Shown one piece after another: positions 4,525 to 20,238 of a stretch of DNA of 64,000 nucleotides. Position numbers and translations under genes: made by a program. The DNA is from Anaerolineae bacterium (lineage in GTDB: Bacteria; Chloroflexota; Anaerolineae; Aggregatilineales; UBA3940). The stretch lies in NCBI GenBank assembly GCA_016926255.1, contig JAFGOY010000061.1, forward strand, positions 62,001 to 126,000. Reading direction: 5' to 3'. Under the pieces are notes generated by a model, which saw nothing but the letters and a program-made list of their open reading frames with translations, did not search any database and was not told where the DNA came from. Numbering within the stretch: position 1 is the stretch's first letter; each line of letters starts with the position of its first letter.

Positions 4525-6157
4525 TTAACAGTAACCATAAGCTCTGATAGGGGGCCATAGACAGGCGGTAGGGGGCGGCACCAATTGGGTGAAAAGTCTG
4601 CGCGTCGTTCAAAAGATTCTGGGGCTGCTGACCGGCGTATTCGTCCAGATATGCCTCTACCCGCTGCAAACGGCGGGCCAGGTTGTGGAATACCAGGACA
4701 GTCTGATCGCCATATTCACGGACAAATCCCAGCACCGACGGGCTGCCAGTCTCAATAAAGGCTAACGTACCCAATGCCAGGACAGGATGCTCTTTGCGGA
4801 GGGCAATCAGGGAGTGCATCTGGTTCAGCAGCGATCCGGAATCGTCCTGCTGGTTGACGACATTGACCTGCTGGTATCCATAAACGGGATCGTCGATTGG
4901 CGGTGCATAGAGGTCCTCAAGGGCGGCGTTCGAAAAACCGGCGTTTGGGCCGTCGTTCCACTGCATTGGGGTTCGGACACCGTTGCGGTCGGGCAGGTCG
5001 ATGTTATCTCCCATGCCGATCTCGTCGCCGTAGTAAATGATCGGCGCGCCGGGCAGTGAGAACAGGAGCCGATTGGCCAGCAGAATCTTCTCGATGTTAT
5101 TGTCGAGCAGAGGGGCCAGCCGCCGCCGGATGCCCAGGTTCAGGCGCATTTCGTCGAGCGGCGCGTATTGCTCCCACATCCACTGCCGTTCTTCCTCGGT
5201 CACCATTTCCAGGGTCAGTTCATCATGATTTCTGAGAAAAATGCACCACTGGCAGTTATCCGGAATATGCGGCGTTTCGCTCATGATGGTGCGGATTTTG
5301 GTGCTGTCGCCCGAACGGAGCGCCATGAAGATACGGGGCATCAACGGGAAATGAAAGGCCATGTGGCATTCATCACCATCACCGAAATATTCGAGCACGT
5401 CCTGTGGGGGCTGGTTTGCCTCACAGAGCATGATCGCTTCGGGGTATTCCTCGTCCATGATCCGGCGCATCTGCCTGACGAATTCATGCGTCTCCGGGAG
5501 GTTCTCGCAGCTGGTTCCCTCGCGTTCGTAGAGATAGGGGATGGCATCGACACGGAAGCCATCAATTCCCCGGTCGAGCCAGAAGCGCATGATGTCGAAC
5601 ATGGCCTGGTGGACTTCGGGATTGTCGAAGTTCAGGTCGGGCTGGCAGGGATAGAAGCGGTGCCAGTAGTATTGTTCGGTTTGTTCGTCGTAGGTCCAAT
5701 TCGAGGTCTGGGTATCGACGAAGATGATACGGGTATCCCCGTAACGCTGATCGGTGTCACTCCAGACGTACCAATCACGTTTGGGATTGTCACGCGAGGC
5801 GCGGGACTCGACAAACCAGGGATGCTGATCGGAGGTGTGGTTGATGACCAGGTCGACGATCACATGCAGCCCGCGAGCGTGCGCTTCCTGGATCAGATAG
5901 TCGAAATCTTCCAGCGAGCCATAGTCGGGGTGGATGGCGATGTAGTCGGCGACATCGTAGCCGTCGTCTTCCAGCGGTGAGGGATTGATCGGCAGCAGCC
6001 AGATGCAGTCGATGCCCAACTGCTGGATATGATCCAGCTTCTCCGCTATACCGTGCAGGTCTCCAATACCGTCGTCGTTGCTATCGTAAAAGGCCCGCAC
6101 GTTGAGTTCGTAGAAGACGGCATCCATGTGCCAGGGTATGTTTTTCGAGTGAACCAT
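4508..6157 (-). CDS. treS: Trehalose synthase (maltose alpha-D-glucosyltransferase, GH13)
   Basis: This 549-residue enzyme is of the TreS type (EC 5.4.99.16), which isomerises maltose and trehalose in the cytoplasm. It begins with the characteristic VFYELNVRAFYDSNDDGIGD segment and has NHT at 106-108, the nucleophile D204 in GFRVDAIPYL, the acid/base E246 in MLCEANQPP and D312 in RNHDELTLEM. The C-terminal beta domain follows the segment PMQWNDGPNAGFS. It lacks the fused maltokinase domain found in some TreS proteins, and no maltokinase is present nearby. It lies downstream of an alpha-glucoside transporter and overlaps amylosucrase, so it probably handles imported maltose or trehalose. An alpha-glucosidase or sucrose hydrolase of the same clan is less likely given the TreS-specific ends. 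Confidence 0.9.
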   Translation of the reverse strand: MVHSKNIPWHMDAVFYELNVRAFYDSNDDGIGDLHGIAEKLDHIQQLGIDCIWLLPINPSPLEDDGYDVADYIAIHPDYGSLEDFDYLIQEAHARGLHVIVDLVINHTSDQHPWFVESRASRDNPKRDWYVWSDTDQRYGDTRIIFVDTQTSNWTYDEQTEQYYWHRFYPCQPDLNFDNPEVHQAMFDIMRFWLDRGIDGFRVDAIPYLYEREGTSCENLPETHEFVRQMRRIMDEEYPEAIMLCEANQPPQDVLEYFGDGDECHMAFHFPLMPRIFMALRSGDSTKIRTIMSETPHIPDNCQWCIFLRNHDELTLEMVTEEERQWMWEQYAPLDEMRLNLGIRRRLAPLLDNNIEKILLANRLLFSLPGAPIIYYGDEIGMGDNIDLPDRNGVRTPMQWNDGPNAGFSNAALEDLYAPPIDDPVYGYQQVNVVNQQDDSGSLLNQMHSLIALRKEHPVLALGTLAFIETGSPSVLGFVREYGDQTVLVFHNLARRLQRVEAYLDEYAGQQPQNLLNDAQTFHPIGAAPYRLSMAPYQSLWLLLNGERN

Positions 6158-6221
6158 GCAGTTTGCCTTTGCAGGATTTTGTGAGGACGTTGTATGAGCT
6201 AACCCGGCTATAGAAGGGATG

Positions 6222-6257
6222 GGGCGACCCTATGCGACCGAAGGTCGCTGGTCGCCC
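6222..6257 (-). other. Nested stem-loop between permease and treS
   Basis: An outer 8-bp stem GGGCGACC/GGTCGCCC (6222-6229 with 6250-6257) encloses an inner 6-bp stem GCGACC/GGTCGC (6234-6239 with 6243-6248) with a GAA loop. It lies in the 174-nt gap between aglG and treS and is not followed by a T-tract on the minus strand, so it is more likely an mRNA-processing or stability element, or partial attenuator, than a full terminator. Confidence 0.6.
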
Positions 6258-6331
6258 TTACCATTGACGCCCGATTTTTCTGTTAGACCACATTAAACGT
6301 CGCTACAAAGTCTTTAAAACGTATCTAAAGA

Positions 6332-7435
6332 TCAACCCTTAACTGAACCAGCCATCAGCCCGCGCACGAAATAACGCTGAAGCGAGAAGAAGACCACTAG
6401 CGGAACGACCATAGAGATGAACGCGGCAGCCGTGAGCAGATGCCAGTCTGCTCCACGTGAGCCGACCATCCCCGCGATACGCTGCGTCAGCACCTGGACG
6501 TTTCCACTGGTCACACCCAGGAAGATCAGTGCAACCAGGTAGTCGTTCCACACCCACAGGAACTGGAAGATGGCGAACGACGCCAGAGCAGGCACAGACA
6601 GCGGCAGGATCAGGCGGGTGAAGATGGTGAAATGGGAAGCCCCGTCGATGAAGGCCGACTCCAGAATGTCACGCGGTATGGTGCTGATGTAGTTGTAAAG
6701 CAGGTAGGTTGCCAGCGGCAGTCCAAAGCCGGTATGGGCCAGCCAGATCGCAAGGAACGTGCCGTTGAGGTTCAACTTCACGTAGTCGCGCAGGATCGGG
6801 ATCAGCGCAATCTGGAGCGGAACAACCAGCAGCGCTACCACAATGATAAACAAGATCCGCCGCCCTGGGAATTTCATCCACGCGAACCCGTAGGCCGCGA
6901 AAGCGGCAATCAGGATCGGGATCACCGTCGCGGGCACCGTTACCGTCAGCGAGTTGAGGAACGATGCGCTCAGGTCATCACCCTGAACGGTTGACGTGCT
7001 GCCGTCGGCGTTTCTGATGGTGTATTCCTTGCCGACGAGCACCTGTCCATAGTTCTCCAGCGTGAAGTTGGAACCGGCTGTCCACTGGCGGTCTTTTACC
7101 TGAATGTGCCCGTTACGAAGGTTGCCGATCCATACAAACTGCCTGCCATCGCCTGTGTCTACGCCCGCACGAAACTCGTCGTAAGTTGCTGTTACACCTT
7201 CAATTGTGATCTCCGAATCAACCGAGGCATTCTCCGGGATCGGTAGTTCGCTTACCTGGACCCAGCCCCGGTGGGGGATGATTGTCCACCAACCGGATGA
7301 CTGGATATCTTCCCGGTCGCGAATCGATGATACCAGCAGGCCGAGGGTAGGGACTGTCCAGGCAATGCATATGAGAAGCAGGATCCCGTTGACCAAAAGT
7401 TGGCCTACGAGCTTCTGTTGTTTTTTGCTCTGCAT
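6332..7435 (-). CDS. aglG: Alpha-glucoside ABC transporter permease (AglG/MalG type)
   Basis: This 367-residue inner-membrane permease belongs to the MalG side of CUT1 sugar importers. One membrane helix near residue 20 is followed by a large extracytoplasmic insert (about 40-150), then five helices. The stretch NSLTVTVPATVIPILIAAFA and FAWMKFPGR are typical of AglG, which also carries such an insert. The EAA loop appears as ESAFIDGASHFTIFTRLILP, which contacts the ATPase. Its ATG overlaps the stop codon of the upstream permease by one base (TAATG), so the two are translationally coupled. No ATPase gene is in this operon; a shared MsmX/MalK-like ATPase encoded elsewhere is expected. Substrate choice (maltose, sucrose, trehalose) cannot be read from sequence. 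Confidence 0.88.
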   Translation of the reverse strand: MQSKKQQKLVGQLLVNGILLLICIAWTVPTLGLLVSSIRDREDIQSSGWWTIIPHRGWVQVSELPIPENASVDSEITIEGVTATYDEFRAGVDTGDGRQFVWIGNLRNGHIQVKDRQWTAGSNFTLENYGQVLVGKEYTIRNADGSTSTVQGDDLSASFLNSLTVTVPATVIPILIAAFAAYGFAWMKFPGRRILFIIVVALLVVPLQIALIPILRDYVKLNLNGTFLAIWLAHTGFGLPLATYLLYNYISTIPRDILESAFIDGASHFTIFTRLILPLSVPALASFAIFQFLWVWNDYLVALIFLGVTSGNVQVLTQRIAGMVGSRGADWHLLTAAAFISMVVPLVVFFSLQRYFVRGLMAGSVKG

Positions 7436-8544
7436 TAGAAAACCTCCTGCTTGCTGAACTGGATCAGGTTATAGATCATGACCGGGATAACGGCGATCAG
7501 CAGCACAATGGCGATTGCCGAGCCGTATCCGAAGTTCTGATTGTTGAAAAACTCCCTGTAAAACCTGACGCCAATCACCTCGGTGCCGAACTGCCCACCG
7601 GTGGTTACCATCACCACGTCAAATATCTTCAGGGTGAAGATCACGACGGTGGTGGTAACGGTGATGATCGTCCCCTGGATATAGGGGATGATGATCCGGA
7701 AGAAGGTCTGTGTTTCGGTTGCGCCATCAACACGGGCGGCCTCAAGCAGGTCATCGGGCACACCCTTGATCGCTGCCGAGAACAGTACCATGGCATAGCC
7801 GGTCTGGAGCCAGATCACGATCACCGTCAGCAGCAGGTTATTCCAGGGCTGGACAAGGGTGATCCATGCTTGCGGCTCACCTCCCAGAGCGGTAACGATG
7901 GCGTTGAGCAGCCCAATGTGAGGGTCGACGTCATAGACAAAGCGCCAGATCACACCGGCACCGACCATCGAGATTGCCATTGGCAGGAAGATCACGGCCT
8001 TAGCGACGTTCTCAAAATTGCTGCGGTCAGCCAGAACGGCGATCAGTAGCCCTAATGAGACGGTGAAAGAGGTTCCCACTATCATCCATAATGCATTATT
8101 GCGATAGGCTTCCAGCATGATACGCTGGGTGAAAGTGGCGATGTAGTTCTGAAACCCGACGAATTGAGATGAGTCGGCACTTCTCAGGCTGAGCCAGAAG
8201 GTGCGGACAGTGGGGAGAGCCAGATACCAGGTTAAGATTGCCATCGCCGGGCCAACGAACAGGAATGGCTGAAGCTGGGCTTTCCATTCGTCTGGAAGGA
8301 GCTCCAACACCCAGTTAAAGACCCAGTAAAGGGCCGCTACACCGCCTACTCCCCAGATGATGGCGACGATCGCGATTATAAGCTGGGGAGCATCGCTGTC
8401 TCGGAGAAAAAGGAAGCCCGCGCGTAGCCCCAGGAACGTAACCACGGGAACCAGTACCGATATGAGAATCCTGCCGATATTTGCAGCCACCCACTCCAGT
8501 GGGGTGGTTCTTCTTTTTTCTTGTATATCTGTTTGCTGCATCAA
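7435..8544 (-). CDS. aglF: Alpha-glucoside ABC transporter permease (AglF/MalF type)
   Basis: This 369-residue inner-membrane permease has about eight hydrophobic helices: two N-terminal helices before residue 80, then the six-helix CUT1 core starting at FLFVGPAMAILTWYLALP. The EAA loop is EAARVDGATETQTFFRIIIP. It pairs with the downstream AglG-type permease to form the channel and receives sugar from the lipoprotein encoded upstream. The gap to the binding-protein gene is 183 nt and contains a strong stem-loop, which probably lowers permease expression relative to the binding protein. The start ATG at 8544 is preceded by GGGGAGG, a good ribosome-binding site. Confidence 0.88.
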   Translation of the reverse strand: MMQQTDIQEKRRTTPLEWVAANIGRILISVLVPVVTFLGLRAGFLFLRDSDAPQLIIAIVAIIWGVGGVAALYWVFNWVLELLPDEWKAQLQPFLFVGPAMAILTWYLALPTVRTFWLSLRSADSSQFVGFQNYIATFTQRIMLEAYRNNALWMIVGTSFTVSLGLLIAVLADRSNFENVAKAVIFLPMAISMVGAGVIWRFVYDVDPHIGLLNAIVTALGGEPQAWITLVQPWNNLLLTVIVIWLQTGYAMVLFSAAIKGVPDDLLEAARVDGATETQTFFRIIIPYIQGTIITVTTTVVIFTLKIFDVVMVTTGGQFGTEVIGVRFYREFFNNQNFGYGSAIAIVLLIAVIPVMIYNLIQFSKQEVF

Positions 8545-8727: not shown

Positions 8728-10119
8728 CTAGTCGGATGGCCAGGCGGCGTCGATTTCGGACAGTGCGGTATCAAGATCAACCGTGCCGCTGAAGTAGTCG
8801 GTCATGCCCTTCCAGAAGGAGCCGGAGCCAACTGCACCGGGCATCAGGTCGGAGCCATCGAAGCGAACACTGTCGGCGTCGTTCACAAGTCCGGCAATGC
8901 CGCGCTCGATGTCATCACCATACCAGCTCAGTTCAGCGTCGTTATGCGGTGAGAGTGCGCCACCACTGCCCAGCCAGGTTCGCAGCGATTCACCACGTGA
9001 GAAGAAGTCCATCACGGCGCGTACTTCTGGACGGTCATCGAACATCGCGTAGATGTCGCCAGCGATCAGGTAGGGCTTGCCATATTCTTCGTCGATAGGA
9101 GGCAGGTAGAAGAAATCGTAGTCCTCGCCAGCGACGGTCCCCTCGGGGAAGAAGCTGGTGATGAAGTTGCCCTGCTTGTGCAGCCAGCACTTGGGCGGAT
9201 CATCGAACATCGGGAGCGGCGCGTCACCGAAGAAGGTGTCGGCGATGGCAGCTGTGCCACCATAGACGTAACCTTCATGCAGCCACAGATCGCTCATGAC
9301 CTGGGCTGCATTCTTGACTTCGGGAGAAGTGAAGGGCAGACGGTCGGCAGGATCAGCGGGGAACGACCAGTTGTCGTAGTTCTCAAGCGAGGTCGTCCGT
9401 AGCATGATCTCTTCCATCCAGTCGGTGGCGGGCCAGCCGGTGGCGGCACCGGACTCGATGCCGATGCACCAGGGAGTATCGCCGTCAGCGACGATCTGGT
9501 CAGAGAGGGCTAACATTTCGTCCCAGGTTTCGGGGACTTCGTAGCCAGCATCGTCGAACGCCGGCTGCGGGTACCAGACCTGGCTCTTGCCGTTGTAGCG
9601 TGCCCACACACCAGCCTGGATACCTTCCATCTGGGCCATGTCGAGCCACGCCTGCTTGTAGTTCTTCTTCAGCCAATCCTGGTTCATTACGTCGGTCAGG
9701 TCGACAACGTCGCCGCTCTTTACGAAGTTGAGCAGGAGGCCCGGCTGCGGGAAGTCGGCAATGTCAGGGGCGTCGCCACCTTGAACCGCAGCAGTGATGA
9801 TCGTCTCGAATTCCTTCGTACCCGTATACTGAATGTCGATCCCGGTCCACTCTTCAAACTCGGCGACGGACTCGTTGAACTTCACTTCGTCCTCGTCGGT
9901 GAAGGGGCCGGTCATCGTCACAACCATGCCGTCATATTCACCCATGCAGGCGGCTTCCAGTTCAGGGGTCAGCATTTCCCAGTCACTGGGGCACATGAAT
10001 TCCGCTTCCGGCTCGGCTACTGGCTCTGGCGTTGGCGTCGCTTTCGGAGCGCAGGCCACCATCACCAAAACCAAAGCAGCCAAAAGTGCAAAAACCACGA
10101 CTCTCTTCTTAGAAGACAT
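8728..10119 (-). CDS. aglE: Alpha-glucoside ABC transporter substrate-binding lipoprotein
   Basis: This 463-residue protein starts with a basic N-end, a hydrophobic stretch and the lipobox VMVAC at residues 19-23, so it is a lipoprotein anchored outside the membrane. A Pro/Thr/Glu-rich linker (about 24-40) leads into a family 1 solute-binding fold with GGDAPDIADFPQPGLL near 115. The sequence resembles the alpha-glucoside binding proteins (AglE type). It is the first structural gene after the LacI-type regulator and precedes two matching permeases, so it captures the sugar for this importer. The 221-nt gap upstream presumably holds the operon promoter. Confidence 0.88.
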   Translation of the reverse strand: MSSKKRVVVFALLAALVLVMVACAPKATPTPEPVAEPEAEFMCPSDWEMLTPELEAACMGEYDGMVVTMTGPFTDEDEVKFNESVAEFEEWTGIDIQYTGTKEFETIITAAVQGGDAPDIADFPQPGLLLNFVKSGDVVDLTDVMNQDWLKKNYKQAWLDMAQMEGIQAGVWARYNGKSQVWYPQPAFDDAGYEVPETWDEMLALSDQIVADGDTPWCIGIESGAATGWPATDWMEEIMLRTTSLENYDNWSFPADPADRLPFTSPEVKNAAQVMSDLWLHEGYVYGGTAAIADTFFGDAPLPMFDDPPKCWLHKQGNFITSFFPEGTVAGEDYDFFYLPPIDEEYGKPYLIAGDIYAMFDDRPEVRAVMDFFSRGESLRTWLGSGGALSPHNDAELSWYGDDIERGIAGLVNDADSVRFDGSDLMPGAVGSGSFWKGMTDYFSGTVDLDTALSEIDAAWPSD

Positions 10120-10340
10120 TTCTAAAACTCCTCTTTATCTTCAGTTATCAATTGCATCGTGCATGGCATTGTCACCTGCCGATGCAGACAACTTTGTTAA
10201 TACCAAACGAGAAATACAACTTCGGTTTTAATTATTTGTTCGCTAGTACCTCCTTATGTTTTCTGATCGCTAATTATCACATCTGGAGTTCCTAAGGGAA
10301 GCATCGCCTGTTTCATGGTGGAAACGGAGATTTCCCTCCA
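10120..10340 (-). promoter_or_regulatory. Probable promoter region of the sugar operon
   Basis: This gap separates the regulator's stop codon from aglE. It is AT-rich close to aglE. It holds two loose inverted repeats, GTTTC-N6-GAAAC at about 10310 and TTCC-N4-GGAA at about 10290, which could be weak operator half-sites, but neither matches the strong palindrome upstream of the regulator. No convincing -35/-10 pair was picked out. Confidence 0.35.
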
Positions 10341-11369
10341 TTAATTTGATGGTGGCGGGCCGGTAGTCTCTCTAACGACCAGGTTGACGGGCAGCGTTAT
10401 CGATCTTGATGGGGCTTCGTCGCTGCCATTGTCAATAATTTCCATCAGTGTGGTTATGCCATCCACGCCGCTTTGAAATAATGGCTGGCTGACTGTGGTC
10501 AGTCCGATGTATGCCGAGACTTCAATGTCATCGTAACCAACAACTGATACATCTTCCGGTACCTGCAGCCCCAACGCCTGTAAAGCTTCGAGGCAGCCGA
10601 TGGCGTGGGTATCACTGGTTGTGAAGATCGATGTTGGCGGTTCGGACAAGGCCATTAGCTCCTGTGCCAGACGGTAAGCGGCTGCTTTACTGTGGTCGCC
10701 CTGCCTGTGGTACTGCTCTTTAAATACCACGTTGTTACGTTCAAGGGTCTGTCGGTAACCCTTTAGACGCTGCTGGCTGGCACCGAAACCAAAAGGATAG
10801 TCGATATAGTCGCTGAGAAATGCGATTTTGCGGTGACCAAGATCGATTAAGTGCTGTGTTCCCTGCCGCCCACCATCAATGTCATCAATAATGATGCTGG
10901 TCAACTCCGAATGTTTAGAATCCACCAACACAACCGGCATACCATACTGCTTAAACAGTCTTACATCTTCATCCGTAGGGTGAAGTGTGATGATCACCAG
11001 ACCGTCCACGCGTCTTTCACGAGGAATGCGTTTGAAGAGATCGTCTCGTTGTTCTGGTGTTTCGACGTTGTAGAGAATAAGGTCGTACTGACTTTCAAGT
11101 AAGGCTGTTTCGATACCCCTTAGACGACCAACGTAGGCTGGCCGTGTAAAAAATGGTGCAATAATACCGATAGCCTGTGAACGCCCCCCCGTTGATAGTC
11201 GGCGTGCGATGGGGCTGGGGTGGTAATCGAGTTCTTCTATGGCAGCGAGGACTTTTTCCCGGGTCTTCTCGCTGACGAGTGGGCTGTTGTTGATTACACG
11301 AGAGACGGTTCCGACGCCAACATCTGCTTTTTCTGCAACATCACGGATTGTGTAAGTTTTTGCCACCAT
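10341..11369 (-). CDS. LacI-family transcriptional repressor of the sugar operon
   Basis: This 342-residue protein has an N-terminal LacI helix-turn-helix (YTIRDVAEKADVGVGTVSRVINN, about residues 4-26), the hinge helix region ARRLSTGG near 57, and a periplasmic-binding-protein-like effector domain to the end. It is cytoplasmic and should act as a dimer on palindromic operators. The ATG at 11369 is preferred over 11375 because AGGA then sits 5 nt upstream. A 16-bp palindrome lies about 23 nt upstream, so autoregulation is likely, and the same-strand position just before aglE makes the sugar operon its obvious target. The inducer is not readable from the sequence. Confidence 0.92.
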   Translation of the reverse strand: MVAKTYTIRDVAEKADVGVGTVSRVINNSPLVSEKTREKVLAAIEELDYHPSPIARRLSTGGRSQAIGIIAPFFTRPAYVGRLRGIETALLESQYDLILYNVETPEQRDDLFKRIPRERRVDGLVIITLHPTDEDVRLFKQYGMPVVLVDSKHSELTSIIIDDIDGGRQGTQHLIDLGHRKIAFLSDYIDYPFGFGASQQRLKGYRQTLERNNVVFKEQYHRQGDHSKAAAYRLAQELMALSEPPTSIFTTSDTHAIGCLEALQALGLQVPEDVSVVGYDDIEVSAYIGLTTVSQPLFQSGVDGITTLMEIIDNGSDEAPSRSITLPVNLVVRETTGPPPSN

Positions 11370-11608: not shown

Positions 11609-12601
11609 ATGAAACCTGTCAGGCTTGTTATTCAAATTCCCTGCCTGAACGAAGAGAAGACGCTGCCAGCGACACTGAAGGAACTGCCGAAGCAGATCGA
11701 GGGGGTCGATGAAATCCTGGTTGTCGTCATCGACGACGGCAGTACCGACGGCACCGCCGAGATTGCAAAAGCCTCTGGCGTCGATCACGTTGTCCGACAC
11801 CTCCACAACAAAGGACTGGCTGCTGCTTTCCGCAGCGGACTTGAGGCAGCATTCCAGCTTGACGCCGATATCATCGTCAATACTGATGCTGACAATCAAT
11901 ATCCTGGCGAGTTTATCCCGGCACTTGTTGCACCTATTCTGGATGGGAACGCTGACATCGTGATCGGTGACCGGCAGACGGATCGGATTGCGCACTTTTC
12001 ACCGGTCAAGCGGCTGCTGCAGCGGCTGGGCAGCGCTGTTGTTCGTTATGTGTCGGGAACAAAGGTACCCGATGCCCCCAGTGGATTTCGGGCGCTCTCA
12101 CGCGAGGCTGCGATGCGGCTCAACCTGATCACGAACTATACCTATACGCTCGAAATGATCATTCAGGCCGGTAAGAAAAATATGACGGTCGGCCACATCC
12201 CGATAACAGTCAATGCCCAGACTCGGCCCTCGCGGTTGGTTCGCAGCAACGCCGGGTATGTATTCCGATCAGTGACGGCTATCCTGCACCTGTTCCTGCT
12301 CTACGAGCCGATCCGCAGCTTTCTGTATATTTCGATACCCTTCTGGCTGGTGGGGGTGGGGCTGTGGCTTCGCTACTTCATCCTGTATCTCTCCGGGGAG
12401 GTATCGCGGGGGTCGAACGTCCAATCGGTTGTGGTGGGATCGGTGGCGCTGATCGTCGCCGTGTTCATCGACCTGATCGGCCTGTTGGGGAATATACTGG
12501 CGGTTAATCGTTATTTGAACGAGCAAATCCTCTTCACCCTCAAACGACTGCAATTCGATGCCCATATAAGGATGCCTCAAGACAATGACAAAACGAAATA
12601 A
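11609..12601 (+). CDS. GT2 glycosyltransferase with C-terminal membrane helices
   Basis: This 330-residue protein has a GT-A domain of family 2 in residues 1-230 and two membrane helices near 235-300. The nucleotide-binding motifs are visible: IPCLNEEKTL at 10, VIDDGSTDGT near 41, and NTDADNQYP near 93, whose DAD holds the metal. It resembles polyprenyl-phosphate sugar transferases (dolichol-phosphate mannose synthase type), which charge a lipid carrier with a sugar at the cytoplasmic face. It overlaps the next gene by 17 nt, so the two are coupled. The sugar and acceptor cannot be read. Confidence 0.88.
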   Translation: MKPVRLVIQIPCLNEEKTLPATLKELPKQIEGVDEILVVVIDDGSTDGTAEIAKASGVDHVVRHLHNKGLAAAFRSGLEAAFQLDADIIVNTDADNQYPGEFIPALVAPILDGNADIVIGDRQTDRIAHFSPVKRLLQRLGSAVVRYVSGTKVPDAPSGFRALSREAAMRLNLITNYTYTLEMIIQAGKKNMTVGHIPITVNAQTRPSRLVRSNAGYVFRSVTAILHLFLLYEPIRSFLYISIPFWLVGVGLWLRYFILYLSGEVSRGSNVQSVVVGSVALIVAVFIDLIGLLGNILAVNRYLNEQILFTLKRLQFDAHIRMPQDNDKTK

Positions 12602-14561
12602 ACCGGCTTCGCCGGTGCTGAAACGCCTGCTGACCATCACCTGGTGGGTGGTGGCTGGAGTGTTTTTTGTTATTGCCTGGCGAGAATTTGTCGGCCCTGA
12701 CCAATCGCTGGGCGAACTGCTGCGCCCAGTCGATTGGTGGCTGTTTGTGTTGGCCCTGGCCGTATTAATTTTCGGGCAGGTGGTGCGCGCCCAGCTTACT
12801 TATGCCAGCCATACCGCGCTTAACTATCGAGTTGATCGCGGTGAGGGTTTTCGCTACTGGGTGTTTTCCCAGATGGGCAAATATATTCCGGGTGGCATCT
12901 GGCTGTTTGCTTCCAGAACCGTCTTTTACCAGCAGAACGGAATGCCCACCCTGATCGCCAGCGGGGTCGTGGTGTGGGAAACGCTTTCCATCCTCATCAC
13001 CGGGATCGTTATTGTGCTGATCAGCATCCCCACGCTGCCGGTGATCAAATGGGGGATGATCGGCAGCATCGGCGCGGCAGGTCTGCTGATCGTCACCGGG
13101 GTAGGACTGTGGCAAACGCCGCGTTTCTGGGAATGGTTAGTCAAGCTGCGCATCCCCGGCGCATCGTTGATGCTGAGGTTCGTCAACGAAACCGCCGACA
13201 AGCGAACGAAATTGTTACGGGGGCATCTGATCCTCTCGGCAGTCTCCTGGGTGATCATTGGCAGCGGATTTTACCTGCTGACTCTGTCCTTCCCGCCGCT
13301 GCGCGGCCTGTCGGTGCTGTCGGCGAATGCGATCTTCATCGCTAGCTGGGTGATCGGGTTCCTGGTTTTGATCGCGCCGGGCGGAATTGGTTCACGAGAA
13401 GCGGCCATGATCGCATTTCTGCTGCCGCTGATCAGCCCTTCAGAAGCGTTGGCCTTCGCCGTCATTGCCCGCATCTGGTGGACGTTGGGAGAGGCGCTGC
13501 TGTTCCTGTTTGGCGGGGGGATGCAGCTGCTGGCGTCGATGCGAGCTGTGGGTGAACCATCAACTGCCGCTGATGATAACATCGAAACGGCTGAACCGTT
13601 CTTTATCGTCGGATGCGGACGTTCGGGGACGACCCTGCTACGAACGATGCTTAACCATCACCCGGAAATCGCGATCCCCCTCGAATCTTTCTTTATCGTC
13701 GATTACCTGCGTGCGCCAAAGACCATTCCCGCTGCCCGTTTAGGGTCAATGCTGAGGCATGAATACGAGTTAAAAGAATGGGGGCTTGATCTTACCGGGG
13801 AAATGCTTGAGGGGTGTGAAACACCCAGAGAACTGATCACAAGGTTGCATGAACGCTACGCGGCAGAACACGGTAAGACCCGCTGGGGTCAGAAAACACC
13901 GCGGTTGATTCGTTTCGGCGGCTTGCTCAAAACCAACTATCCAAAGGCCAGATTTGTCATCGTGCTGCGTGACCCGCGTGCGACGGTCAATTCATTGATG
14001 AAATCGAACGTACACAGCGCCAATGTGCTGTTTGCGTCGAAACGGTGGGCGGCAGATGTCCGCGAGGGGCTGGCCCTCAAACAGACCTATCCCGACGACG
14101 TGCTGGAAATCCGGTATGAAGACCTGGTCACACAGCCTGAACAAAATCTAAGACAGGTTTGTGACTTTCTGGACATTGCCTACGATCCGGTCATGCTGAC
14201 CTATCACAAGAGCGGCGTGAAAGAATATTCAAGTTACTATGATCAAATCCACGCCCGGCTTGCCCAGCCACCCCAGGCCAGTCGTGTTGACGCGTGGCAG
14301 GATGAACTTAAGCCAGAGGATGTGGCGATCATCGAATCGGTTTGTGGAGACCTTATGGAACAGGTCGGTTATCAGCCGCCCGAACAACGCAGCGAAGTGC
14401 GCAAGGGCCGGATCGCCCGCTACACTCTCCTGCGGATACCGGGAATGTTTTCACAGGTGTTCTACTACACCACCAAGCGGCGTGGGTACATTTTTAACTA
14501 TGCCCGGCGAAAGCTGAATTTAGGATTGTTCTGGCGCGATTTCTGGCAGATCAACTACTGA
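12585..14561 (+). CDS. Flippase-like membrane domain fused to a sulfotransferase
   Basis: This 658-residue protein has two modules. Residues 15-320 contain about eight hydrophobic helices and resemble the LPG_synthase_TM/AglD-like family associated with lipid or glycolipid transfer (for example FSQMGKYIPGGIW near 89 and APGGIGSREAAMIAFLLPL near 263). Residues about 335-610 are a cytosolic sulfotransferase: the 5'-phosphosulfate loop FFIVGCGRSGTTLL at about 338 and the 3'-phosphate segment IVLRDPRATVNSL at about 457 bind PAPS. It should therefore sulfate a lipid-linked or membrane substrate. It follows and overlaps a GT2 gene, which points to a sulfated glycolipid or polymer. Domain order and both motifs are clear; the substrate is inference. 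It ends in a 42-nt overlap with a convergent gene. Confidence 0.88.
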   Translation: MTKRNKPASPVLKRLLTITWWVVAGVFFVIAWREFVGPDQSLGELLRPVDWWLFVLALAVLIFGQVVRAQLTYASHTALNYRVDRGEGFRYWVFSQMGKYIPGGIWLFASRTVFYQQNGMPTLIASGVVVWETLSILITGIVIVLISIPTLPVIKWGMIGSIGAAGLLIVTGVGLWQTPRFWEWLVKLRIPGASLMLRFVNETADKRTKLLRGHLILSAVSWVIIGSGFYLLTLSFPPLRGLSVLSANAIFIASWVIGFLVLIAPGGIGSREAAMIAFLLPLISPSEALAFAVIARIWWTLGEALLFLFGGGMQLLASMRAVGEPSTAADDNIETAEPFFIVGCGRSGTTLLRTMLNHHPEIAIPLESFFIVDYLRAPKTIPAARLGSMLRHEYELKEWGLDLTGEMLEGCETPRELITRLHERYAAEHGKTRWGQKTPRLIRFGGLLKTNYPKARFVIVLRDPRATVNSLMKSNVHSANVLFASKRWAADVREGLALKQTYPDDVLEIRYEDLVTQPEQNLRQVCDFLDIAYDPVMLTYHKSGVKEYSSYYDQIHARLAQPPQASRVDAWQDELKPEDVAIIESVCGDLMEQVGYQPPEQRSEVRKGRIARYTLLRIPGMFSQVFYYTTKRRGYIFNYARRKLNLGLFWRDFWQINY

Positions 14562-16130
14562 ATCAGAGAGCATGTCGCCAGGATCATCTTCAGGCTGCTT
14601 TTTCGATCCCAACTGCATTCCAATATAGGTCAGGCTGATCAGCGCATAGAGCGGGACCAGGATAGCGAGCTGACTTCCTCGCAGCCATTGGTAAAGCCAT
14701 TGCCAATCAGGCAGGTTAAACTCGTACAGTTCATCGAGTAAAACCTGGTCCTTACTCGAACTGGGTGGGTCGAGATAGGGCTGCGGATCGGACAGCAGGT
14801 TCATGAAATTTCGGACGGTGGTTTTTGCGTTAGCCACCAAAGGATTATGACGAACCGTCCACAGCCTGCCGTTCAGATCGAGGGTTGGTTCCTCAAGGCC
14901 AAGTTCGATGATATGACGCTCGACCGGGACACTGATTGTCGTCAACTGCACGGCGATGCTCAAAACGATGACCCCAACGATCAATCCGCGCTGCCATTTC
15001 TTGTGCTGAGTCCAGTTTTCGAACAGTTCGGCAATGGGCAGGAGTATGGAAAGGAAGGCGGGCATCAGGTAGTACGATCCCCATCCCCAGAAGGCACGCA
15101 GCGGCGTAAGGCTGGAATAGAAGACGACATAAGTCACGAATAAAACCAGCAGGCTGATCACCATCACCCGGTGCTTTTTGTAAGCCTTTCCAATCGCAAA
15201 TGGAACCAGCCATAAAACCGGCGTATAGATCAACATACCGCGCCAGGGGCTGACAAACCACGACAGGCCCTTGATGAAATTCGGTGGCATGAAATCCGGT
15301 GTCCGGTTTTCGTAGCCGCTTTTGAACAGCGTTTCAAAGCGCACATAGTTATAGGCCAGTTGTACCCAGCCGATCAGAGTGAAGCCGAGGCCGAACCATA
15401 TCGCATCTTTGATGTGCTCCTGCAAGGTGCGGTCTTCACCGCGAAAAAGGACAAGGATCGCAAGGCTCGGTCCGGCGATCACCGCCGACACCCGTGTGAT
15501 GAAAGATACACCCAGAAACGCGCCGGCTATCAAATAGTGCAGCGACCGGTTCTTCTCTTTGTTTTGGGCAATCAGGATGAATGTCATCGAGCCGAATATG
15601 CCCATCGTCGTTTGAACCGAATTATGGGTGTGGCCGGAAACGACCCAGAGAATGGTGCCAAAGGCAATGACGAAGGCAGTGAGAAGAGCGGATCGGGGCG
15701 TGTAGCCAAGCTCCCGCAGCAGCAAATACGCCAGCGTAGGAATCAATGCACCGGTGAGTGCCATGAGCATAATCATCGGAGAGAAAAGCCCGGCGATACT
15801 CTGCCCCAATCGCCCGGTGGTGGCTACCCATTTGTTGGCGGCGATGAAGGGCATTTCAAGCAGCGATTGGCCGATAGCATAATAGGAGTACATGCGGCCA
15901 TCCTTGCCTGCTGTGCCCCGGTTCGCACCGATCTCCCCGGTGTCGATCTGGACAAGCGCCAGTTCACCCTGGAGGAGATTTTCGGCGACCAACTCCCGGA
16001 TCGCGCCGTCGGTGTGGAGGAATGAATGTGGTGCCGTACCGAGGTAGATGCCGAATATGGCAAGGAATATGGTGAGGGCACCGGGTTTTTTGAAGATGGT
16101 TTTTAATTTCATGACGAAACTATTCTGCAT
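14520..16130 (-). CDS. Polytopic membrane protein, GT-C glycosyltransferase type
   Basis: This 536-residue protein has about ten hydrophobic helices between residues 18 and 380, with one more near 490-510. The first extracytoplasmic loop contains HTDGAIRELVAENLLQGE, where an Asp soon after the first helix matches the position of the catalytic acid of GT-C (ArnT/PMT-like) enzymes. These enzymes transfer sugars from polyprenyl-phosphate donors outside the membrane, which fits the neighbouring GT2 that would make such a donor. It is convergent with the sulfotransferase fusion and divergent from an LCP gene. I assign only the fold class. Confidence 0.7.
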   Translation of the reverse strand: MQNSFVMKLKTIFKKPGALTIFLAIFGIYLGTAPHSFLHTDGAIRELVAENLLQGELALVQIDTGEIGANRGTAGKDGRMYSYYAIGQSLLEMPFIAANKWVATTGRLGQSIAGLFSPMIMLMALTGALIPTLAYLLLRELGYTPRSALLTAFVIAFGTILWVVSGHTHNSVQTTMGIFGSMTFILIAQNKEKNRSLHYLIAGAFLGVSFITRVSAVIAGPSLAILVLFRGEDRTLQEHIKDAIWFGLGFTLIGWVQLAYNYVRFETLFKSGYENRTPDFMPPNFIKGLSWFVSPWRGMLIYTPVLWLVPFAIGKAYKKHRVMVISLLVLFVTYVVFYSSLTPLRAFWGWGSYYLMPAFLSILLPIAELFENWTQHKKWQRGLIVGVIVLSIAVQLTTISVPVERHIIELGLEEPTLDLNGRLWTVRHNPLVANAKTTVRNFMNLLSDPQPYLDPPSSSKDQVLLDELYEFNLPDWQWLYQWLRGSQLAILVPLYALISLTYIGMQLGSKKQPEDDPGDMLSDSVVDLPEIAPEQS

Positions 16131-16259: not shown

Positions 16260-17387
16260 ATGAGGAAAAAGCAGCAAGCCCCGGATGTTTTACCTGATGA
16301 AAGTGGGATCGACGAACTATCGCTGTCTGAAGAAACTCTGGCGGGGAAATCTCCATACCGGCGGGCGATAATCAGCGGTGTGGTGACCGGGCTGCTGCTT
16401 ATCACGTTTTTCGTCGTTCGCTGGTACTGGCTTCGCCCCCTGGGACCGAAATTGACGATTTCAACCGAATCGCTTGATCGGGGATCCGGTATCGACAACG
16501 CCGAACGTCCAGAAACTGTTGAGTCGGAGCAGATGGACGCCCCGGCCTCTTCTGCCCCCTACTGCGGTGGGCCGCCGGTGATGTACCTGATGATCGTCGG
16601 GAAAGATACATTGGAGTACGAGTACAATATCGGCGATGCCGATGCGATCCGGCTCGTCCGGGTAGATTTCGTCTATCCCTCGATTACAATCCTGCCCATC
16701 CCGCGCGATCTGCTGGTGCCCATACCGGGTATGGCCGACCATGGTGTCGGCTCCAACCGGATCAAGACGGCTTATGCTTACGGGAATCGCTATCTTGGCC
16801 CCGGTGGGGGGCCGAGCCTGCTGGCCGAGACACTGCTTGTCAACTTTGACGCACAGGTCGATCACTATGCGGTGGCGAATTTCGACGCATTCAAGGAGGG
16901 AATCGACGCCGTTGGTGGGGTCGATCTTTACTTCGACGAGGCGTTCGACGTCGACGAAGACGGTACGGTGGAATTCCTCCAGGGCATGAATCATCTGGAT
17001 GGGGAAGCCGCGCTGAGCTATGCCCGCGCCCGTCCGGAGGATGCCACCGACCTGTACCGCATCGGGCGGCAAACCGAATTGATCAAGGCGATTCAAGTCA
17101 AACTGCTCAGTCCGCAGCTATTCCCATCGCTGCCCCGGCTGATCCGGTCGATCTCTGCATTGATGCTGACCGATTTAAGTCCATCGGATATTTCGAACTT
17201 GCTGTGCATCATGCAGCGTGTCGAACCCGATTATATTCAAAGCATCTCTCTCGAAAAGACCATGTATTCGTCAGAGATCGATCAGAATGGCTATGAATAC
17301 CTGCGCCCCGATATAGATGCGATCAGTGTCTATATTGTCGATTTTGAGGCCGGTGAACTGTCGGCTTTGCCGGATCGATCTGACTGA
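16260..17387 (+). CDS. LytR-CpsA-Psr (LCP) family transferase
   Basis: This 375-residue protein has a cytoplasmic N-terminus of about 38 residues, one membrane helix (about 40-60) and an extracellular LCP domain (about 105-330). The arginine motifs that bind the polyprenyl pyrophosphate are present: IPRDLLVPIPG near 142 and YARARPEDATDLYRIGRQ near 256. LCP enzymes attach glycopolymers to peptidoglycan or cell-wall proteins. The neighbours, including membrane glycosyltransferases and a nucleotide-sugar epimerase 79 nt downstream, fit an envelope glycan role. No clear ribosome-binding site precedes the ATG, so the start is less certain. Confidence 0.9.
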   Translation: MRKKQQAPDVLPDESGIDELSLSEETLAGKSPYRRAIISGVVTGLLLITFFVVRWYWLRPLGPKLTISTESLDRGSGIDNAERPETVESEQMDAPASSAPYCGGPPVMYLMIVGKDTLEYEYNIGDADAIRLVRVDFVYPSITILPIPRDLLVPIPGMADHGVGSNRIKTAYAYGNRYLGPGGGPSLLAETLLVNFDAQVDHYAVANFDAFKEGIDAVGGVDLYFDEAFDVDEDGTVEFLQGMNHLDGEAALSYARARPEDATDLYRIGRQTELIKAIQVKLLSPQLFPSLPRLIRSISALMLTDLSPSDISNLLCIMQRVEPDYIQSISLEKTMYSSEIDQNGYEYLRPDIDAISVYIVDFEAGELSALPDRSD

Positions 17388-17466
17388 CATCGGCTTTTGT
17401 AAACGATGAACTTGACCGGTAGAATGAGCGATTATGAGCCGGAACCGTTCAGCATCGAGAGGAACC

Positions 17467-18450
17467 ATGAACGAGGAAACCAAAACCGCCAACACGACTA
17501 TTCTGGTTACCGGGGGCGCGGGCTTCATCGGCAGCAACCTAGTCGATAAGCTCCTGGAGCGCGGCGACAGGGTAGTCTGCATCGATAATTTCAACGATTA
17601 CTACAATCCGGGGCAGAAACGATCCAATATAAAGGGCTGCCAGGAGAATCCTCGTTACACGCTGGTGGAGGGCGACATCCGCGATCGCGATCTGATCATG
17701 CAGGTCTTCAAAGAGCACCAGCCGAAGCGGGTGGCGCACCTGGCGGCGATGGCTGGGGTGCGCTACTCGATTGAACGGGCCACGCTCTACACGGATGTCA
17801 ATATCCAGGGGACGATCAACGTGATGGACGCGGCACGCAGTGTCGGGGTTGAGAACCTGGTATTCGCTTCGACTTCCTCGATTTACGGGGATACCGATCG
17901 CACCCCATTCCTGGAGACACAATCAACCGACCGACCGCTGGCCCCCTACCCGGCGACAAAGAAAGCGGGCGAAGTGATGGGCAGCGCCTATCACAACCTG
18001 TTTGGGCTGAACTTCACCGCGCTGCGCTTCTTTACTGTTTATGGACCGCGCGTTAGACCGGATATGATGGCCTATATCGTCATGAATCGGATTGTGAAGG
18101 ACGAAGAGATTGTCCTCTACAACAATGGTGAAATGCACCGCGACTGGACATACGTCGATGACATCGTTACGGGGGTCGCGGCTGCGCTGGATAAACCACT
18201 GGGATATGAGATATTTAACATTGGGCGCGGCGAACCGGTTCGATTGGGTGATTTTGTCGACATCATCCAGGAGTTGGTGGGAAAACCGGCGCGGATCAAG
18301 TCGGTTGAGGCACCGGCAAGCGAACCGGCGATCACATTTGCCAGCACCGAAAAGATGCTTGGGGTGTTTGGCTACCAGCCGAGGGTATCGATCCGGGAGG
18401 GGTTGACAAATACCTGGGAGTGGTACCGGCGGGAACATGGCCTGGTGTAA
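17467..18450 (+). CDS. NAD-dependent nucleotide-sugar epimerase (UDP-glucuronate 4-epimerase-like)
   Basis: This 327-residue extended short-chain dehydrogenase begins with the NAD-binding motif VTGGAGFIGSNL (residues about 11-22). The catalytic ASTSSIYG segment is near 138 and the YxxxK pair appears as YPATK near 163. The segments CIDNFNDYY and FTVYGPRVRPDMM are close to UDP-glucuronate 4-epimerases; a UDP-glucose 4-epimerase is the alternative. It supplies activated sugars in the cytoplasm, presumably for the surrounding glycosyltransferases. The ATG at 17467 is chosen because GAGAGGA lies 4-5 nt upstream; the in-frame ATG at 17434 has no such site. Confidence 0.88.
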   Translation: MNEETKTANTTILVTGGAGFIGSNLVDKLLERGDRVVCIDNFNDYYNPGQKRSNIKGCQENPRYTLVEGDIRDRDLIMQVFKEHQPKRVAHLAAMAGVRYSIERATLYTDVNIQGTINVMDAARSVGVENLVFASTSSIYGDTDRTPFLETQSTDRPLAPYPATKKAGEVMGSAYHNLFGLNFTALRFFTVYGPRVRPDMMAYIVMNRIVKDEEIVLYNNGEMHRDWTYVDDIVTGVAAALDKPLGYEIFNIGRGEPVRLGDFVDIIQELVGKPARIKSVEAPASEPAITFASTEKMLGVFGYQPRVSIREGLTNTWEWYRREHGLV

Positions 18451-18521: not shown

Positions 18522-20063
18522 TTATACCGATCTTTGTGAAACATCGGCGCTGTCAAATGTGCGGGTGACTTCATCGAGCAAAAGGGAAGAAACCGGATCG
18601 ATGGCATGAGTGGTGCGAACTTTGTCAACTGCCCTGGCGATGGCCCATCTGGTATCGTATTCCTGGCTGCGCCAGTAGTTAACCAGGATTGGAATATCCG
18701 GTTCGCCCATCGCCACCAGCCCGATCGCCGCCGCCCAGCGAACGTGGGGTTCTGAACTCCGGAGTGCCCCGATTAGCCCCGGCAGGGCTTCTTCGCCGAT
18801 GGCGGCAAGCGCCTCAGCCGCCGCGATCCTGACGCCGTTGTCTTCGTCTTTCAGGTTTTTCAATAAACCATTGACCGCGTCGGGGCTGCCGATGATACCT
18901 AACGAGCGGGCCGCCGCCCAGCGTTTCATCCAGTCTTCGCTGCGGAGCGCGCGGAGCAGGCCGAGCATGGCCGCTGTGTTGCCGATCACCCCCAGCACCC
19001 AGGCCATCGGCACATAGATCGTCCGATCTTCGCTTGCCAGGCCCTCCAACAGACTGGGCACCGCCGCTTCCCCCATCTGGTTAAAGATACCGGTAATGAT
19101 CCTCCTGGCTGATGGGCTGGCCTTGCGCAAGTCTTCGCTCAGGCCAACTATTGCTTCTGCCCCGATTTCGGCCAGGGCCTGGGCTGCCATCTCCTGGAGA
19201 TCGCCGTGAGAGTCGTCGAGAACAACCTGCCGAAGGGTGGACATAACCGTCCTGCCGCCGATTTCGACAAGGGTCTGGAGGACTATATCGCGCGTATCGG
19301 GGTTTTGCTCTTGCGATTGCAGGATATCGAGCAGTGCCGGAACGGAGGCTTCGCCGATCTGTACCAGCGCCTTGCTGACAATCGGATGGCAATGGAAGTA
19401 TTCCGGGCTGGCGAGGATCGAGGTCAGACCGGGTATGGCTGATTCTTCCATGTCGCATAATACCCGGTAAGCGGCCATCTGGGATTCTTCATCGTTGCTG
19501 CATAGAGCTTCCATGAGACCGGGGATCACGGCTTCTCCCATACTTTTTAGAACATTGGTGGCGGCCCAGCGAACGCTGCGATTAGAACTGTGGAGAGCCT
19601 CCAGCAGTTCAGGAATCGCGGCCTTCTCACTCTGTGATAGAATGCCCGCCGCTGCTTTTCGGACGTTGCGATCTTCATCGACGAGGGCTTCCAGGATGCC
19701 GGGGACGGTGCGAAGATCGTCGATCCAGCTCAAAGACATCACCGTGTAAAGACGAATTTCGTTATCGGGACTTTTTAATAAATCCAGCAAGCCTGGGACG
19801 GCGTCTGCGCTTCCGATCCAGCCCAGGGCTTGAATCGCCGAAAGCTGCACCTCGCGATCCGGGTCGGCAACAGCCTGGAAAAGGTATGGAATAGCGGAGG
19901 GATCACCCAACCGTCCGAGCGACTTTACTGCGACAAGCCGTACCTGTGGATTGTCATGCGACAGTTCGCGGACAAGTGAAGGAATAGTGCTTTGATCCCC
20001 ATCCCATCCCAATTTTTCAATTTGTTGTATTCGTTTTTGTACTCGCTTGGAAACCGGTTCCAT
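18522..20063 (-). CDS. HEAT-repeat protein
   Basis: This 513-residue protein is built almost entirely from 30-35-residue HEAT (PBS lyase-like) units, for example RLVAVKSLGRLGDPSAIPYL, VQLSAIQALGWIGSADAVPG and IRLYTVMSLSWIDDLRTVPG. There is no signal peptide, membrane helix or catalytic domain. Such solenoids act as scaffolds for protein binding; the partner is unknown. The ATG at 20063 is preferred because the preceding frame back to 20141 has a Cys/Val-rich start without repeats and AAGGG lies 6-10 nt before 20063. It stands alone between a terminator and a 175-nt gap. A second, different HEAT protein occurs at 38859. Confidence 0.88.
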   Translation of the reverse strand: MEPVSKRVQKRIQQIEKLGWDGDQSTIPSLVRELSHDNPQVRLVAVKSLGRLGDPSAIPYLFQAVADPDREVQLSAIQALGWIGSADAVPGLLDLLKSPDNEIRLYTVMSLSWIDDLRTVPGILEALVDEDRNVRKAAAGILSQSEKAAIPELLEALHSSNRSVRWAATNVLKSMGEAVIPGLMEALCSNDEESQMAAYRVLCDMEESAIPGLTSILASPEYFHCHPIVSKALVQIGEASVPALLDILQSQEQNPDTRDIVLQTLVEIGGRTVMSTLRQVVLDDSHGDLQEMAAQALAEIGAEAIVGLSEDLRKASPSARRIITGIFNQMGEAAVPSLLEGLASEDRTIYVPMAWVLGVIGNTAAMLGLLRALRSEDWMKRWAAARSLGIIGSPDAVNGLLKNLKDEDNGVRIAAAEALAAIGEEALPGLIGALRSSEPHVRWAAAIGLVAMGEPDIPILVNYWRSQEYDTRWAIARAVDKVRTTHAIDPVSSLLLDEVTRTFDSADVSQRSV

Positions 20064-20238
20064 CCTACCCTTACAGTCTCTATACCTCACCGAACGTATA
20101 CAGCAGTCGACAACTAAGACTACTTTATAGTCTAGGGCCATAATCGAAAAATGGGGTTACAGACTTGTTACACTGATAACATCAGTTCGCATTGTCGTTC
20201 TGCATGTAACGCTGCTGTACAACGCGCGGATGCCCTTA

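Follow-up and report, generated by a model that had tools for sequence, protein, structure and literature searches.

Sulfated surface glycans are known in some bacteria and in microbial mats, and the genes responsible for them are poorly assigned. In the Arn pathway (ArnC, ArnD, ArnE/F, ArnT), a family 2 glycosyltransferase (GT2) acts on undecaprenyl phosphate, the product is modified in the cytosol and flipped, and a transferase of the PMT family uses it. The archaeal protein AglD combines a GT2 with a membrane domain of the LPG_synthase_TM type. Here we describe a gene from an Anaerolineae bacterium (phylum Chloroflexota) in which a membrane domain of this type is fused to a sulfotransferase dependent on 3'-phosphoadenosine 5'-phosphosulfate (PAPS). 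It lies within a 64,000-nucleotide stretch of contig JAFGOY010000061.1, referred to below as the window, and appears as a single-chain form of a gene set found in several phyla.

Several related systems have been described. MprF carries a flippase domain and a headgroup-modifying domain in one chain (PMC8131360), and the Pseudomonas aeruginosa MprF scrambles many lipids (PMC11980842). In hexSDF of Clostridioides difficile the flippase is described as MprF-like (PMC10128005). In gpgSDF of P. aeruginosa a glycosyltransferase and a deacetylase make glucosamine-phosphatidylglycerol (GlcN-PG), the role of the flippase being predicted only (PMC12713373). The N-glycan of Halobacterium is sulfated, its dolichol phosphate (DolP)-linked form is described as sulfated, and Agl30 and Agl31 belong to the alkaline-phosphatase/sulfatase superfamily (PMC11980604).

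The window locus resembles each of these systems in part. The N-terminal domain of the fusion belongs to the same Pfam family as MprF, which is its best structural match, and a modifying domain follows in the same chain. That domain, however, is a PAPS sulfotransferase, no aminoacyl-transferase Pfam domain was found in the fusion, and a GT2 gene accompanies it. The GT2 resembles ArnC and the locus would follow the same logic of making, modifying, flipping and transferring, whereas the Arn flippase comes from another family and a deformylase stands where the window has a sulfotransferase. Unlike in AglD, the GT2 of the window is a separate gene. NoeE and other bacterial carbohydrate sulfotransferases have their catalytic superfamily in common with the fusion; to our knowledge, none of them has a flippase domain. 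HexSDF and GpgSDF likewise bring together a glycosyltransferase, a sugar modifier and a flippase of the MprF-like or AglD2-YbhN type in one gene set, but their modifier is described as a deacetylase giving positive charge, their genes are separate and GpgS is a GT4 enzyme (PMC10128005, PMC12713373). The window instead has a sulfotransferase as modifier, fused to the flippase, and a GT2 as the glycosyltransferase. Halobacterium offers a precedent for sulfate on a dolichol-phosphate-linked glycan, although the enzymes described there, Agl30 and Agl31, are not of the Sulfotransfer_3 family.

The fusion is encoded by a single ATG-started frame without internal stop. Pfam places LPG_synthase_TM (PF03706) at residues 40-297 with 49.9 bits (curated cut-off 33.4) and Sulfotransfer_3 (PF13469) at residues 338-535 with 123.8 bits (curated cut-off 27); Sulfotransfer_1 also matches (49.5 bits). 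A preliminary description of the DNA had named this domain pair, which is borne out by both scores. The motifs it listed, GCGRSGTTLL and RDPRATVNS, were found in the translated frame, and the 17-nt overlap it gave between the fusion and the GT2 gene agrees with the borders of the two frames. The fused frame and the domain pair are confirmed as real: the score of each domain is well beyond chance, and elsewhere members of these two families occur repeatedly as separate neighbouring genes.

The two domains are joined by a short linker, before which stand-alone flippase relatives end and at which stand-alone sulfotransferase relatives begin; in the model of the whole chain, residues 310-334 have a predicted local distance difference test score (pLDDT) below 50. 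An artefact of assembly or sequencing, in which a base error joined adjacent flippase and sulfotransferase genes, is a very improbable origin of the fusion, and the gene set would be real even then. Every other member of the sulfotransferase lineage is stand-alone, one genome only has the fusion, and the 19 codons 319-337, a very short stretch, have a third-position GC content of 0.32 compared to 0.59-0.71 in the flanking domains. Against an artefact, the frame continues without a stop across a linker outside both domains, both domains are complete, and inspection by eye revealed no internal start preceded by a clear ribosome-binding site.

The N-terminal half has eight membrane segments by hydropathy. 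Because this number is even and the N-terminus is basic, both ends of the flippase-like domain are predicted to be cytosolic, which would place the sulfotransferase in the cytosol. The membrane half is poor in the whole-chain model, as the alignment used for it (A4) has no other flippase rows, and residues 1-320 were therefore modelled alone from a seven-row alignment (mean pLDDT 68.9). In a structure alignment against 998 chains, six MprF entries rank first (Z 11.5-13.2, next fold Z 6.5), with MprF residues ~51-343 aligned to the modelled domain. Among PDB sequences, a search with the flippase profile gave nothing credible, only two chance-level rows. Taken together, the Pfam match and the separation in Z score from the next fold support an MprF-like flippase domain with a putative role in lipid translocation. 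The host genome has six PF03706 matches, the fusion included.

The C-terminal half is modelled with block-mean pLDDT of 75-98 over residues 341-650. Its top Foldseek matches are all sulfotransferases, led by TPST2 (E 1.9e-10): the tyrosylprotein sulfotransferases (TPSTs) come first, followed by CurM and olefin-synthase sulfotransferase domains and then by others. E367, K437, R462 and S470 are invariant in 13/13 aligned rows, and R346, G348 and T349 in the 12/12 rows that reach those columns. From the alignment and the residue numbering of TPST2, E367 is taken as the counterpart of its catalytic base, K437 as that of its catalytic lysine, and the other conserved residues as those of positions that bind PAPS. 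The preliminary description had pointed to loss of the PAPS-binding residues in homologues as grounds for doubt, and they are conserved throughout the aligned rows. Retention of the PAPS and catalytic residues identifies this half as a PAPS-dependent sulfotransferase with putative sulfate transfer. Its basic and aromatic C-terminal tail, with predicted helices at residues 607-631 and 633-646, is also present in aligned stand-alone relatives and may lie on the membrane.

Protein tyrosine sulfation of the TPST kind was considered and rejected: the residues beside the catalytic glutamate in TPSTs are not kept, the arginines found there in TPSTs being replaced by F369 and D373 in the fusion. That TPSTs are the nearest solved structures may reflect a bias in which structures exist. 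NoeE (NF052394) is the sole NCBIfam row matched by the fusion, at 51.7 bits and far under its cut-off of 500. The host genome has further Sulfotransfer_3 genes: those on contigs C33 and C49 score well, one on C38 is over the cut-off, and C72 has two weaker matches within one frame.

Searching named genomes with a profile built on the sulfotransferase half gave 14 loci. These were pooled with whole-genome matches, and loci holding the same genes as another were removed (L058, L060, L062, L071 and L075, the same as L044, L045, L047, L046 and L059, respectively), giving 14 distinct loci besides the window (L044-L047, L059, L061, L063-L070). The hosts are Chloroflexota, two Wenzhouxiangella, another gammaproteobacterial metagenome-assembled genome (MAG), Methyloceanibacter, and MAGs assigned to Alphaproteobacteria, Chitinophagales and 'Deltaproteobacteria'; one further contig is filed as Woesearchaeota and may be a binning error. 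With all frames scanned, a separate flippase gene is present at 7/14 loci. The distant L068 and L070 are counted here and are left out of alignment A4; omitting both gives a flippase at 7/12. A GT2 scoring >300 bits is found at 8/14 loci and a PMT_2-like gene at 5/14, and the window has a PMT_2-type membrane glycosyltransferase (GT-C) too.

Gene order varies among these loci. L061 and L067 have GT2, sulfotransferase and flippase in that order, preceded by PMT_2 in L069 (Wenzhouxiangella). The order is GT2, sulfotransferase, PMT_2, flippase in L063, and L065 has a GT2, a 609-aa membrane protein, the sulfotransferase and the flippase. Flippase and sulfotransferase stand together in L066 (Methyloceanibacter marginalis), with a GT2 nearby, and are convergent in L064. 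L045 has PMT_2, GT2 and sulfotransferase, L047 GT2, sulfotransferase and PMT_2, and L046 the sulfotransferase and PMT_2. The flippases of L061, L064 and L067 were called independently by Pfam. Those of L063, L065, L066 and L069 come from profile comparison at 94.6-97.1% probability, three of them matching over part of their length only; a Wzx-type control gave 0.3%.

For comparison, 24 other sulfotransferase loci were taken from the phylum of the window, two of them (L054, L055) from the host genome. None of the 24 has a flippase gene, six have a GT2 (one at >=140 bits) and two have weak PMT_2 matches. The difference is significant for the flippase (7/14 against 0/24, Fisher p 2.7e-4) and for GT2 at >=140 bits (8/14 against 1/24, p 4.5e-4). 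The control is imperfect, with flanks of 4.8-18 kb and members from this phylum only, while the related loci span several phyla, and the association of flippase with the sulfotransferase lineage appears, from these gene neighbourhoods, strong but not final. In a tree of 15 lineage rows and 16 of the 24 controls, the window groups with every related locus but L070, which falls outside (13 of 14; fork 82/98); many branches are weak. The tree supports a sulfotransferase lineage and gives no order for the fusion event. Alignment A3, in which stand-alone flippase rows were aligned to the sulfotransferase domain, was dropped, and A4 and A6 were used instead.

The fusion itself was found in 0/399 other genomes of the phylum, where scoring was limited to three candidates per genome and a fusion could have been missed, and in 0/60 relatives in which every candidate was scored. 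The whole protein as query found no relative among genome contigs or viral contigs, and none of 52 plasmid records matched by tblastn reached 80% query coverage. Close relatives of the sulfotransferase half (>490 bits) occur in five others of 154 genomes of the order (G415, G404, G408, G451 and G502), all in frames of 342-377 codons. Stand-alone relatives of the flippase half, 35-39% identical, adjoin GT2 genes in G441 and G458, and in G426 a GT2 64% identical to that of the window adjoins a flippase 30% identical to the window domain. Thus each half exists without the other, and the GT2 can accompany a flippase in the absence of the sulfotransferase. No paper on this architecture, or on the wider gene set, was found by title and abstract in the open-licence PubMed Central (PMC) literature. 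The gene set as such recurs in several phyla, and its fused variant was seen in a single genome.

The genome of the host (4.6 Mb, 82 contigs, 96% complete) has one APS (adenosine 5'-phosphosulfate) kinase gene (E 1.1e-60) and, on a different contig, one ATP sulfurylase gene (E 3.8e-98), so that the PAPS synthesis genes which the preliminary description had proposed to look for are both present. PF01507, the PAPS reductase family, had no match in the genome, and the identical search was positive in 14/14 control genomes. As the PAPS-making genes are present and PF01507 is unmatched, PAPS is probably made for the sulfotransferases. Taking the 96% complete assembly at face value, the usual sulfate assimilation route seems absent. 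At L057 5753-10191 (C74 of the host genome, G000), two genes of the same orientation come after the one for ATP sulfurylase: one of the phosphodiesterase/nucleotide pyrophosphatase family and another PMT_2-type glycosyltransferase gene.

Analysis of these genes suggests the following scheme. On the cytosolic side of the membrane, the GT2 would attach a sugar to a lipid, the product most likely being a polyprenyl-phosphate sugar. The sulfotransferase half, kept at the membrane through its fusion to the flippase domain and perhaps also by its own tail, would transfer sulfate from PAPS to this sugar in the cytosol, and the MprF-like domain would move the sulfated lipid to the outer leaflet. There the sugar may be handed on to a glycan or protein of the surface by a GT-C, for example the PMT_2 protein encoded next door. 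The predicted cytosolic position of the sulfotransferase fits this scheme, because PAPS is in the cytosol. That the fusion is a two-domain enzyme-transporter acting on a sulfated polyprenyl-phosphate sugar is in our view an evenly balanced proposition, with the substrate, the order of steps, the flipping and the role of the GT-C all deduced from the genes.

A polyprenyl-phosphate sugar is favoured over a final glycolipid because the solved structures nearest to the GT2 are DPMS and ArnC and because a GT-C is often close. Among solved structures the GT2 is nearest to dolichol-phosphate mannose synthase (DPMS, E 8e-15) and ArnC (E 1.4e-10 to 3.7e-10), two makers of polyprenyl-phosphate sugars. 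It scores below the equivalog cut-offs of the named synthases; its best NCBIfam row is AglJ (100.8 bits, below the cut-off of 325), and it scores 42.6 against a cut-off of 529 for the ArnC equivalog (PRK10714). The preliminary description had suggested that a membrane glycolipid could be built and sulfated by the GT2 together with the fusion, which is plausible but too specific, given the resemblance to DPMS and ArnC and the PMT_2-type GT-C next door. A final sulfated membrane glycolipid, in which the GT2 glycosylates a membrane lipid, the sulfotransferase acts on the sugar, the flippase domain brings the lipid to the outer leaflet and no GT-C is needed, is an unlikely product on balance, and would be an acidic counterpart of those of HexSDF, GpgSDF and MprF. 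It would suit the MprF-like membrane domain, as well as L061 and L067, where GT2, sulfotransferase and flippase occur together without a detected GT-C, and hexSDF and gpgSDF, as described, pair a glycosyltransferase, a sugar modifier and an MprF-like flippase to make glycolipids (PMC10128005, PMC12713373). The GT2, however, resembles polyprenyl-phosphate-sugar synthases, whereas GpgS is described as a GT4 enzyme (PMC12713373), and a PMT_2-type gene adjoins the window genes and sits by five of the related loci.

The fusion of the two domains suggests that sulfotransferase and flippase share the same or successive intermediates, a link at which the loci with separate genes would, alone, only hint. 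The domains could instead have different substrates, the fusion serving mainly to anchor a sulfotransferase that acts, for instance, on a polymer, protein or small molecule at the cytosolic face. Consistent with such anchoring, the fusion was seen once, stand-alone lineage members occur without a flippase gene, and L048, L049 and L053 have a flippase and a GT2 without a sulfotransferase. We consider this improbable nevertheless, as the occurrence of the flippase family beside the sulfotransferase lineage, set against its absence from the control loci, argues for a shared pathway.

Several observations weigh against a sulfated polyprenyl-phosphate sugar handled by one enzyme-transporter. Seven of the 14 related loci lack a flippase gene, and L044, L059, L068 and L070 have no partner gene in the stretch scanned. 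Just two of the five PMT_2-like neighbours, those of L047 and L069, exceed the Pfam cut-off, and a profile of the PMT set was negative against the large membrane proteins beside L065, L067 and L061, which were not counted as GT-C. The flippase profiles were partly trained on the counted loci, and with untrained loci only the association is 4/11 against 0/24 (p 0.006). Foldseek ranks MprF first for the flippase model, yet its best E value is just 0.06. Finally, the fusion is known from one assembled genome only.

The features of the locus are listed in Table 1. The 3' ends of the convergent PMT_2 and fusion genes share 42 nt (14520-14561), and the adjacent PMT_2-type GT-C is a candidate user of the exported sugar; no relative of the PMT_2 protein was found among PDB sequences. 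A Pfam scan of the adjacent genes found no polysaccharide deacetylase. The LacI regulator, sugar ABC transporter and alpha-amylase family genes upstream on the opposite strand look like a separate operon. Downstream, 18522-20141 encodes a 539-aa protein made up nearly entirely of HEAT repeats.

Table 1. Features of the fusion gene, its protein domains and neighbouring genes in the window.
Feature	Position	Strand	Basis
GT2 glycosyltransferase, 330 aa, of the type of polyprenyl-phosphate-sugar synthases, C-terminal part hydrophobic	11609..12601	+	PF00535 (88.6 bits), structures, hydropathy
Fusion protein, flippase-like domain and sulfotransferase, 658 aa	12585..14561	+	Open reading frame and Pfam
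N-terminal flippase-like domain, residues 1-320, 8 predicted membrane segments, both ends predicted cytosolic	12585..13544	+	PF03706, hydropathy and charge, MprF match of model
Linker, residues 321-337, outside both domains	13545..13595	+	Borders of stand-alone relatives, low pLDDT
PAPS-dependent sulfotransferase domain (predicted), residues 338-600; RSGTT (346-350), E367, K437, R462, S470	13596..14384	+	PF13469, Foldseek TPST2 match, conserved columns
C-terminal basic/aromatic tail, residues 601-658, two predicted helices	14385..14558	+	Alignment with stand-alone relatives, model
PMT_2-type membrane glycosyltransferase (GT-C), 536 aa, convergent with fusion	14520..16130	-	PF13231 (36.5 bits, cut-off 26.1)
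LytR-CpsA-Psr family protein, system membership uncertain	16260..17387	+	PF03816 (105.9 bits), neighbour only
NAD-dependent sugar-nucleotide epimerase/dehydratase, system membership uncertain	17434..18450	+	PF01370 (209.5 bits), neighbour only

Some of the other loci have features of their own. In L069 a 752-aa protein with a Sulfatase (PF00884) domain is encoded after the flippase gene (8932-11190). It may belong to the pathway, since in Halobacterium glycans are sulfated by enzymes of this superfamily. In L066 the flippase and sulfotransferase matches (5904-6964 and 6968-7983) are each split over two frames, and these genes may be decaying or contain sequence errors. Tandem arrays of five related sulfotransferase genes occur in two other genomes of the phylum (L085 1800-6075 and L090 6554-12690).

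Taken across Chloroflexota, Pseudomonadota, Bacteroidota and possibly an archaeal bin, the loci tentatively point to a pathway, to which we give somewhat less than an even chance, in which a GT2, this sulfotransferase lineage and an MprF-like flippase export a sulfated lipid-linked sugar for use by a GT-C. In the bacterium of the window, modification and flipping in one chain would then form an acidic counterpart of MprF. If true, this would define a bacterial gene set for sulfating a lipid-linked sugar before its export, and would name a sulfotransferase lineage whose neighbouring genes allow its substrate to be guessed. Such a pathway would also be a mirror of MprF and Arn, which make surfaces more positive, the surface here becoming more negative. 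The locus points to a possible route for placing sulfated sugars on the cell surface.

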